Shown here: piece by piece, positions 48,537 to 51,102 of the stretch | How positions within the stretch are numbered: the first letter of the stretch is position 1 | How the letters are laid out: each line of letters starts with the position of its first letter | Assembly (NCBI GenBank): GCA_027005735.1 | Contig: JALTLF010000151.1 | Location: forward strand, 1-53,202 | Source of the DNA: Chromatiales bacterium | GTDB taxonomy: Bacteria; Pseudomonadota; Gammaproteobacteria; CAMYNG01 | DNA: 53,202 nucleotides | Direction: 5' to 3' | Position numbers and translations under genes: made by a program | Notes under the pieces: model-generated | The model's input: only the letters and a program-made list of their open reading frames with translations | What the model was told of the DNA's origin: nothing | Database searches by the model: none

Positions 48537-49402
48537 GCACGCGCAGCACCATCCACCTGGTCGAGGCCACGGTGCTCGAACACCACCACCTCGACGGCGA
48601 ACAACACATCCTGCGCGTGCAGGCCGACGACATCGCCGCCGACGCCCGTCCCGGCAGCTTCGCCCACATCACCTGCGATCCCTGCCTGCCCATGCGCCGT
48701 CCCATCTCCATCCTGCGCGCGGATCGCCGGCAGGGCTGGGTGGAATTTCTCTACAAGGTGGTGGGCGAAGGCACGCGGCGCCTGGCCGAGCGCGGGGAAG
48801 GCGAACTACTCAGTATCCTCGGGCCCATCGGCCGCCCCTTCAGTTTCGATACCGCGCGCCGGCGCCCGCTGCTCATCGGCGGTGGCGTGGGCATGCCACC
48901 CATGATCTTCCTCGCCGAGACAATGCGCGGGGAAAAAGACCTGCAGCCCTTCGTCATCCTCGGCTCCGAGGTGCCCTTCCCCTTCACCGCCCGCCCCTCC
49001 ACCGTCATGGTGCCGGGCATGCCCGAGGGCGTCATCGCCGCCATGCCGCTGCTGGAAGACCGGGGTATCGCCAGCCGGCTGGCCAGCACCCGGGGCTATG
49101 CCGGCTGCTTCGAGGGCTATGTCACCGATCTCGCCCGTCACTGGCTCGACGCGCTGGACGAGGAGGCCCGTGGGCAAGTGGAAGTCTTTGCCTGCGGCCC
49201 CCACCCCATGCTCGAAGCCGTCGCCCGGCTGGCGCGCGACTACAATCTCCCCTGCCAGGTCTCCATGGAAGAATTCATGGCCTGCGGCGTCGGCGGCTGC
49301 GCCGGCTGCGTGGTGGAAGTGCAGACCGAAACCGGCCCGGCGATGAAACGCGTGTGCGTGGACGGGCCGGTGTTCGAGGCGGGGGAGGTTTTTCCGTTTT
49401 AG
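48533..49402 (+). CDS. pyrK: Dihydroorotate dehydrogenase electron transfer subunit (PyrK-like FAD/2Fe-2S reductase)
   Basis: RPISILRADRRQGWVEFLYKVVGEGTRRLAERGEGELLSILGPIGRPF, GGGVGMPPMIFLAE, C-terminal 2Fe-2S cluster CGVGGCAGCVVEVQ...C. Confidence 0.88.
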   Translation: MSTRSTIHLVEATVLEHHHLDGEQHILRVQADDIAADARPGSFAHITCDPCLPMRRPISILRADRRQGWVEFLYKVVGEGTRRLAERGEGELLSILGPIGRPFSFDTARRRPLLIGGGVGMPPMIFLAETMRGEKDLQPFVILGSEVPFPFTARPSTVMVPGMPEGVIAAMPLLEDRGIASRLASTRGYAGCFEGYVTDLARHWLDALDEEARGQVEVFACGPHPMLEAVARLARDYNLPCQVSMEEFMACGVGGCAGCVVEVQTETGPAMKRVCVDGPVFEAGEVFPF

Positions 49403-49467
49403 CCGGGTTCTTTCTGAACCTTTATTTCAAGTTTTAAAAGGTGCTTTTTCGCTCGCACTGCGAGCGA

Positions 49468-49500
49468 GGTACTTTCTTTTGCCCCCCAAAAGAAAGTACC
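49468..49500. repeat. Left terminal hairpin GGTACTTTCTTTT-gcccccc-AAAAGAAAGTACC
   Basis: Perfect 13-bp stem, 7-nt loop; preceded by CGCTCGCA-c-TGCGAGCG at 49450-49466. Confidence 0.9.
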
Positions 49501-49912
49501 CAAAGAAAAGGGGGCCCGGAAATGCCGTCGCTGCGCGATGCCCTTGGGCCCACGGCTGGCGCGGCGCTCGCCTGGACTCGCTGATGCTCAGACACCGGCT
49601 CGCGTCCTCCTTGCCAGCCGTGTGCCCTGCGGCGGCATTTGACGGGAAGGAGGTGGTTTTCTTGCTCTTGAGCGAAGAATCCCAACTATCGCCACAAGGG
49701 TGTGCAGAGTGCGGGTGTTTACCCATCCCCTTACGCCGCGCCGAGCGCGGCGGGGTGTGAACGGACAAAGCCCCATGCGCAGCATGGGGTCGCCGCAGGG
49801 AGGCGGCGAATTGGCAGCGGGCCAGGGACGGCCCGTCTGCCAATCCCGAAACACCCCGGCCCGCGAGGGCACTGCCGCAGGCAGCGCGGCGTGGGGGGTG
49901 TCCTTTCTTTTG

Positions 49913-49946
49913 GGTACTTTTCTTTGGACAGGCAAAGAAAAGTACC
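49913..49946. repeat. Right terminal hairpin GGTACTTTTCTTT-ggacaggc-AAAGAAAAGTACC
   Basis: Perfect 13-bp stem, 8-nt loop; followed by TCGGCCCC-ggt-GGGGCCGA at 49947-49965. Confidence 0.9.
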
Positions 49947-49977
49947 TCGGCCCCGGTGGGGCCGAAAAAACTCCTTG

Positions 49978-51102
49978 TCAATCCGTCTCCTGGATGGTGA
50001 CGCCTTCGAGACCCGCCGCCATGGTGTTGGGATCGCCGCTGGAGTCGCCGAGCTTGATCATCAGGCGCAGCTCGTTGGCCGAGTCGGCGTGGGTCAGCGC
50101 GTCTTCGTAGGTGATCTCGCCTTCCTTGTAGAGATCGTAGAGCGCCTGGTCGAAGGTCTGCATGCCGAGCTGGCGGGACTTGGCCATGAGTTCCTTGAGG
50201 GTGTGGACTTCGCCCTTGCGGATCATGTCTGCCGCCAGCGGGGTGTTGATCAACACTTCGCAGGCCACGCGCCGGCCCTTGCCGTCGGGCGTGGGGATGA
50301 GTTGCTGCGCCACCATGCCCTTGAGGTTGAGCGACAGGTCCATGAGCAACTGGTTGCGGCGATCTTCCGGGAAGAAGTTGATGATGCGGTCCAGCGCCTG
50401 GTTGGCGTTGTTGGCGTGCAGGGTGGCGAGACACAGGTGACCGGTCTCGGCGAAGGCGATGGCGTGGTCCATGGTCTCGCGGGTACGGATTTCGCCGATG
50501 AGGATCACGTCCGGCGCCTGACGCAGGGTGTTCTTGAGCGCCATCTCGAAGGACTCGGTGTCGATGCCCACCTCGCGCTGGGTGACGATGCAGCCGCCGT
50601 GCTGGTGGATGTACTCGATGGGATCCTCGATGCTGACGATATGACCGGTGCTGTTGTTGTTGCGGAAACCGATCATGGAGGCCAGCGAGGTGGACTTGCC
50701 GGAACCGGTGGCGCCGACGAAGATCACCATGCCGCGCTTGGTCATGGCCAGTTCCTTGATGATGGGAGGCAGCTTGAGTTCTTCGATGGTGGGGATCTTC
50801 GTTTCGATCTTGCGCAGCACCATGCCAGCGTGATTGCGCTGCTGGAAGGCGCTGACACGGAAGCGTCCAATGCCGCTGGCGCTGATGGCGAAGTTGCACT
50901 CGTGGGTGCGATCGAATTCCTCGCGTTGCGCCGGTGTCATGATGGAATAGACGATCTCCCGCGCCTGGGTCGGCGTCAGGCTGGACTGCGTCACCGGGGT
51001 GATCTTGCCGTGCACCTTGAGGCTCGGCGCCACGCCGGCGGTGATGAACAGATCCGATGCGTTCTTGTGCACCATCAGTTTGAGCAGTTGTTCGAATTCC
51101 AT
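49978..51102 (-). CDS. pilU: Type IV pilus retraction ATPase PilU
   Basis: MEFEQLLKLMVHKNASDLFITAGVAPSLKVHGKI...GMVIFVGATGSGKSTSLASMIGFRN...ILIGEIRTRETMDHAIAFAETGHLCLATLHANN. Confidence 0.95.
   Translation of the reverse strand: MEFEQLLKLMVHKNASDLFITAGVAPSLKVHGKITPVTQSSLTPTQAREIVYSIMTPAQREEFDRTHECNFAISASGIGRFRVSAFQQRNHAGMVLRKIETKIPTIEELKLPPIIKELAMTKRGMVIFVGATGSGKSTSLASMIGFRNNNSTGHIVSIEDPIEYIHQHGGCIVTQREVGIDTESFEMALKNTLRQAPDVILIGEIRTRETMDHAIAFAETGHLCLATLHANNANQALDRIINFFPEDRRNQLLMDLSLNLKGMVAQQLIPTPDGKGRRVACEVLINTPLAADMIRKGEVHTLKELMAKSRQLGMQTFDQALYDLYKEGEITYEDALTHADSANELRLMIKLGDSSGDPNTMAAGLEGVTIQETD

Follow-up and report, generated by a model that had tools for sequence, protein, structure and literature searches.

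The locus raises a simple question: what occupies the 539 bp or so between a pyrK-like gene and a gene of the PilT/PilU family? The window (the whole stretch of 53,202 nucleotides that was analysed, from a Chromatiales bacterium) contains the end of a pyrK-like electron-transfer subunit gene at 49402 and, on the minus strand, a PilT/PilU-family ATPase gene at 49978–51102 whose stop codon is 49978–49980. From their positions and strands the two genes are convergent, and the end of the block between them, 49438–49976, is 1 bp from pilU. Inspection of the sequence, self-comparison and an ORF check describe this block as an element with imperfect inverted ends and no recognisable gene inside; the interior ORFs that were tested had no Pfam matches. 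A preliminary description of this DNA had proposed such a non-coding block, with its right end 1 bp short of the pilU stop codon, and was correct on both counts. Its suggestion of an insertion in this lineage is supported by the sister species, whose pyrK-pilU gap (locus L014) lacks the element and has other repeats instead; the gap is therefore a repeat hot spot. In L014, at about 1520–1860, there is an apparently decayed BoxC-like repeat, CCCTC...GAGGG, together with further palindromic ones.

The two ends, 49438–49511 and 49902–49976, are imperfect inverted copies of 74–75 bp with 76% identity (E=4e-7). Each contains two hairpins, a GC-rich outer one and an inner one with a perfect 14-bp stem, and when folded as DNA neither end is matched in stability by any of 200 shuffles (z -5.6). 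At the left end, on the plus strand, the outer hairpin predicted by DNA folding (TTTCGCTCGC ACT GCGAGCGAGG, 49447–49469) is followed, reading inward, by a T-rich tract. The inner hairpin S1 (49468–49500) has the arms GGTACTTTCTTTTG and CAAAAGAAAGTACC (49468–49481 and 49487–49500) around the loop CCCCC (49482–49486). After it come the linker CAAAGAAAAG (49501–49510), which on comparison with the stem is a mirror of its purine strand and is the proposed third strand, and the tail GGGGG (49510–49514), which from the sequence and the family statistics is complementary to the loop (pseudoknot helix S2).

The right end has the same parts on the minus strand: a GC-rich outer hairpin, again from DNA folding, TTTCGGCCCC ACC GGGGCCGAGG (49945–49967), with a T-rich tract after it in the inward direction; an inner hairpin S1, GGTACTTTTCTTTG / loop CCTGTC / CAAAGAAAAGTACC (49913–49946, arms 49913–49926 and 49933–49946, perfect over 14 bp); a linker CAAAAGAAAG (49903–49912) that mirrors the purine strand of the right stem, by the same stem-linker comparison; and a tail GGACA (49899–49903) that is complementary to the loop TGTCC according to the unit alignment and the family statistics, giving helix S2. 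The left end thus has the stem CAAAAGAAAG and the linker CAAAGAAAAG, and the right end has them swapped, with the stem CAAAGAAAAG and the linker CAAAAGAAAG. The ends had been described as imperfect inverted copies over about 73 bp. They are indeed imperfect inverted repeats bearing hairpins, but with stem and linker exchanged they are not simple copies of one another.

Distribution and architecture of the family

The same draft genome, of 2.76 Mb, has two further copies, both partial: one, C52, corresponds to the right half, and the other, C226, to the left end. The C226 copy adjoins a prfC-like gene and is common to the sister species (L007). Beside the prfC-linked copy, at 1937–2200 of L007, a gene encodes a protein that is probably secreted and has tandem VI(E/N)DRLDHRGD repeats. 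Because the left half of 49438–49976 resembles the C226 copy and the right half the C52 copy, the element looks like a chimera of a C226-like left half and a C52-like right half. Comparison of the copies places the inner end of the left half, GCGGCATTTGACGGG (49632–49646, plus strand), near the junction of the halves, which are from different subfamilies; comparable positions hold cargo in some other family members.

The family was searched for by its core hairpin, CTTTTCTTTG-N(3-9)-CAAAGAAAAG, with the reversed pattern as a control. The hairpin was present in 29 of the 369 genomes sampled from the class, at up to 23 per genome, and the control gave none, a difference far beyond what chance would give. 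Conserved relatives of the repeat number in the hundreds, and some Paraburkholderia replicons have more than 40 hairpins each. The named positive genomes are mostly Beta- and Gammaproteobacteria, among them Dyella, Xanthomonas, Stenotrophomonas, Lysobacter, Stutzerimonas, Paraburkholderia, Polaromonas and Methylomonas; the hairpin also occurs in Selenomonadales, Bacteroidota and Ilyobacter (Fusobacteriota). Collections of phage and E. coli sequences gave no family members at the sensitivity used. With copies both in this genome and across the class, the alternative of a single-copy sequence falls, and the further copies with conserved ends that the preliminary description looked for do exist. 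An Rfam search (E up to 1) gave no match in 49438–49976, the single sub-threshold match falling outside the element, and sequence and concept searches of openly licensed PMC papers, a scope that leaves figure sequences and subscription literature outside, found no published description of this repeat. The block belongs to a bacterial repeat family that is widespread and apparently undescribed.

The units are paired, one at either end of an imperfect palindrome and both pointing inward: for pairs spaced 150–800 bp, 53 face inward as against 5 in other orientations, counts in which a few of the fetched loci overlap. Many copies have arms inverted over about 130–290 nt and a centre of 15–230 nt. 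Some have a centre of 675–1,428 nt, and in others only the end unit is still an inverted match. The copy in the window is of this last kind, its inverted match being left in the end unit itself and not in longer arms. Copies in P. caribensis (e.g. L183, 9440–9978) have a second inverted pair in the centre, GCCGCCCAGGTGGCAAACTGTGTGT / ACACACAGTTTGCCACCTGGGCGGC, which is nearly invariant within an otherwise mosaic interior.

The long centres hold small ORFs without known family. ORFs of about 94–261 aa were seen between the units at L009, L012, L013, L020, L030, L033, L035, L126 and L167; the one at L167 may be a host gene, in which case two elements may flank it. One centre ORF among the long members has a start resembling a GIY-YIG protein. 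The Methylomonas element L126 has an ORF of 178 aa and a RAYT gene between GGCGGAATAACGGGA and TCCCGTTATTCCGCC. When the cargo ORFs were compared with Pfam, PADLOC and NCBIfam there was no convincing match except RAYT, and the idea that the cargo consists of known defence genes or known families was rejected on this basis.

Covariation within the end units

Each unit has a pyrimidine/purine stem (CTTTTCTTTG...CAAAGAAAAG), then a purine linker, then a tail that pairs with the hairpin loop. Before the stem lies the outer hairpin, at times itself a pseudoknot, the 3′ strand of which matches upstream sequence over an average of 4.5 nt, compared to 3.39 (sd 0.13) when permuted. The units aligned for the loop and tail were selected for the major stem and linker, so that both of these are invariant by selection while loop and tail are free to vary. 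Over 69 distinct units and 4 pairs, loop and tail are paired at 91.7% (53.3% shuffled), with 97 doubly changed cells (34 shuffled) and a covariation of 0.885 (0.223 shuffled, and at most 0.19 in every slid register), where the shuffles, like those for the mirror relation below, ignore kinship among units. An independent permutation test gave 4.0 against 2.09 (sd 0.11). The pairs comprise 248 Watson-Crick, 5 G.T and 3 A.C; the foot of the stem covaries too, with 180 Watson-Crick, 2 G.T and 19 A.C.

The linker is a mirror of the purine strand of the stem, CAAAGAAAAG occurring with AAAAGAAA and CAAAAGAAAG with AAAGAAAA. Further types that keep the mirror are CAAGAGAAAG with AAAGAGAA and CAAAGAGAAG with AAGAGAAA, plus others, and G in the linker follows G in the stem at the mirror position. 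The mirror score of 31 minority stem-linker types is 7.32, compared to 6.06 (sd 0.17) in shuffles, none of 2000 being as high. For the stem CAAGAGAAAG the linker AAAGAGAA was predicted beforehand; a class-wide search found it in 13 of 14 distinct units and the family-consensus linker in none of the 14, in a set of genomes a few of which had already fed the earlier stem-linker list. Mirror and direct linkers were counted with 8-mers, a 7-mer count being uninformative: of 167 hairpins with an asymmetric stem, 111 have the mirror 8-mer only, 19 mirror and direct, 6 direct only and 31 neither, part of these last being decayed copies or unrelated hairpins. Among 13 elements whose two ends have identical stems, 11 have the mirror at both and 12 have no cross-end match; the mirror is thus not explained by Watson-Crick pairing between a linker and the opposite end.

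The mirror relation and the loop-tail pairing, which like the family and its inward pairing are established from sequence comparison, agree with an intrastrand DNA triplex of class II (Pu.Pu.Py) that a pseudoknot closes. These two relations are what is distinctive about the unit, and the preliminary description has neither. The linker would fold back antiparallel along the stem to become the Pu.Pu.Py third strand; the next segment would pair with the loop and lock the fold. We consider it probable that the block at 49438–49976 represents a dispersed DNA repeat, non-autonomous and in this copy chimeric, whose ends have been selected for triplex-pseudoknot folding as single-stranded DNA. Most members are imperfect palindromes, with two inverted arms, often of about 150–270 nt, flanking a short centre or, in some members, a small ORF as cargo; at each end an outer hairpin or pseudoknot would precede the triplex pseudoknot. 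The fold would arise in single-stranded or extruded DNA, where a host enzyme, or else the recombination or repair machinery, would recognise it. We infer that it forms in cells; purine-motif triplexes composed mainly of A.A.T triplets, and only about eight triplets long, are weak.

One alternative is a structured RNA. If the unit were an H-type RNA pseudoknot whose A-rich loop 3 occupies the minor groove of stem 1, acting as a cis-regulatory element or small RNA, the geometry, the A-rich third loop and the strong covariation would fit. Other details speak against it. A-minor contacts do not need the linker G to follow the stem G, the loop-tail pairs contain almost no G.T, and the element has neither an Rfam match nor a promoter-like site. 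The units also face each other, so that in any single transcript one of the two would appear in complementary form. According to PMC4666352, RNA is unable to form purine-motif triplexes, and for this reason the mirror pattern points to DNA. We therefore regard an RNA fold as unlikely, and the large structured RNA offered as one option in the preliminary description is disfavoured by the mirror rule, the near absence of G.T and the Rfam result.

A second alternative is that the element is a bidirectional transcription terminator, or mRNA 3′-end element for convergent genes, that has spread as a neutral repeat. Its position between convergent genes, 1 bp past the pilU stop, suits this, as does the fact that inward from either end, on both strands, a hairpin of 10 pairs comes first and then a T-rich tract; there are 5 terminator-like sites in the element compared to 1.1 (sd 1.2) in shuffles. 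A terminator would not, however, predict the loop-tail pairing, the mirror linker, the paired ends or the cargo, and copies are found between co-directional genes as well (L187, and dapF/DUF484 in Pasteurella). As the whole explanation it is decidedly unlikely. Under the triplex-pseudoknot reading, the inward hairpins and T-rich tracts may add some terminator activity, which would make positions after stop codons tolerable.

Insertion and exchange between copies

At one locus the intergenic region is about 1,000 bp in four Paraburkholderia carrying the element and 162–163 bp in P. phymatum and Caballeronia. Sequence comparison thus identifies an insertion with an empty site in the latter two, the comparison being one between species with diverged intergenic DNA. 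No target duplication was visible at this locus, or from the outer inverted repeats, the boundaries having diverged. Two P. caribensis strains have 20 of 20 compared loci in common, so insertion is not recent there. A closer empty site was looked for at loci of Paraburkholderia sp. PGU19, where there was no clean site, just replaced flanks near the element. At L267 and L278, PGU19 and P. caribensis have one flank of the element in common while the other has been replaced, suggesting that DNA was rearranged at or close to the element.

At orthologous loci the flanks are 99.15% identical and the elements 91.7%. For 72% of the differing sites the alleles exist in other copies, compared to 41% expected, the differing sites are clustered (538 against 347, sd 11), and 14 of 17 pairs contain donor tracts, i.e. 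an exact match to another copy across at least 6 differing sites. These three observations indicate that dispersed copies exchange sequence in a gene-conversion-like manner. In the triplex-pseudoknot reading, recognition of the fold would both spread and homogenise the copies, as has been proposed for REPINs, both processes proceeding via a nuclease or transposase, or by recombination at extruded structures.

Among the loci examined there is no transposase of the element's own. The transposases found within copies belong to inserted IS66, IS256 and IS30; in two different copies the loop of the inner hairpin has taken up IS66 and IS256 members, and in two more IS30 lies immediately past the stem, as if the inner-hairpin structure attracted insertion sequences of three families. 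Insertions in Paraburkholderia copies were observed at L202 (about 2549), L205 (about 2621), L281 (about 2108) and L285 (about 2058).

A third alternative makes the units a REPIN/TIR-type substrate of a Y1 (RAYT/TIRYT) tyrosine transposase. The inverted pairs of structured units do resemble REPINs (PMC3116915), and a RAYT gene lies inside the Methylomonas element L126. That gene is, however, flanked by its own repeats within the cargo region, no unit occurs in the scanned RAYT loci (L231–L260), Y1_Tnp is present in 24 of 29 genomes with the element and 36 of 40 without it, and no Y1 transposase was found in the genome with the most copies. With neither enrichment nor linkage, Y1/RAYT was rejected as the mobiliser, and a Y1 substrate is a very improbable account of the element. 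Finally, that the block is a decayed remnant or a set of chance palindromes belonging to no family, as the partial and chimeric copies in this genome might suggest, can be dismissed in view of the hundreds of conserved relatives, the empty reversed-pattern control and the loop-tail covariation.

Comparison with known systems

The preliminary description offered, as one option, a non-autonomous mobile element of REP or MITE type. The general part of this stands, in that the repeat is dispersed, non-coding and multi-copy, with conserved inverted ends and empty sites; membership of either class is not supported. Like MITEs, the elements have terminal inverted repeats, no coding capacity and multiple copies. 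Unlike MITEs they have long structured arms and some carry cargo in the centre, and among the loci examined there is neither a transposase of their own nor an autonomous parental transposon sharing their ends; no target duplication was seen at the diverged boundaries. The TIRs of TIRtrons (PMC3733652) are likewise long and inverted, and in some species they lie close to tyrosine transposase genes, whereas there is no consistent transposase association here; the comparison is with the description of these families, apart from the figure sequences, and identity with one of them is possible.

REPs and REPINs (PMC3116915) share with the present family the arrangement of two inverted palindromic units that together make a larger hairpin, the extragenic location and the compensatory changes. 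The ends of a REPIN are tens of bp apart, compared to hundreds here, and REPINs have a dedicated RAYT; here there is no GTAG-type tag and no linked Y1 gene, Y1 transposase genes being neither enriched nor adjacent.

The closest likeness is to the BoxC/PIT/TMECO motifs, described as class II intrastrand triplexes in which a further purine strand, in mirror order, runs antiparallel to that of a Py/Pu hairpin (PMC4666352, citing earlier work of Hoyne and Maher). The order that defines this class, a pyrimidine stem, a loop, a purine stem, a short loop and a second purine stem in mirror order, is also that of our units. Both are intergenic, multi-copy, patchy among relatives, sometimes in inverted pairs, and associated with genomic instability. 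TMECO is G/C-rich, CCCTCNCCC...GGGNGAGGG...GGGNGAGGG over 37 nt, while the new units have an A/T-rich stem, and the TMECO consensus is absent from 49438–49976. The first loop between triplex strands is 8 nt here, beyond the 1–6 nt limit of the ITxF search. The loop-tail pseudoknot and the preceding outer hairpin or pseudoknot are further differences, as is the fact that our units terminate a palindromic element with optional cargo.

Whether intrastrand DNA triplexes have a role in cells has been a question since BoxC/PIT was described (PMC4666352). Covariation of stem and third strand that keeps the mirror over several stem types is comparative evidence of the kind long used for RNA structure, and it makes this role testable; in openly licensed PMC papers we found no earlier report of such covariation for a DNA triplex. 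If the interpretation is true, the family would offer evolutionary evidence, of a kind seldom available, for the importance of a DNA triple helix in living cells. Since the family is common yet apparently unannotated, it would also account for many unassigned palindromic intergenic blocks. More tentatively, the family may represent a class of mobile or recombinogenic DNA in Pseudomonadota, Fusobacteriota, Bacteroidota and Negativicutes, the ends of which are selected as single-stranded DNA triplex pseudoknots and recognised by an enzyme; on our reading this class would be a DNA counterpart of the RNA triplex pseudoknots, and would include the cargo-carrying members. By analogy with the systems above, the repeat would work as a REPIN-like inverted pair whose units are triplex motifs of the BoxC/PIT type.
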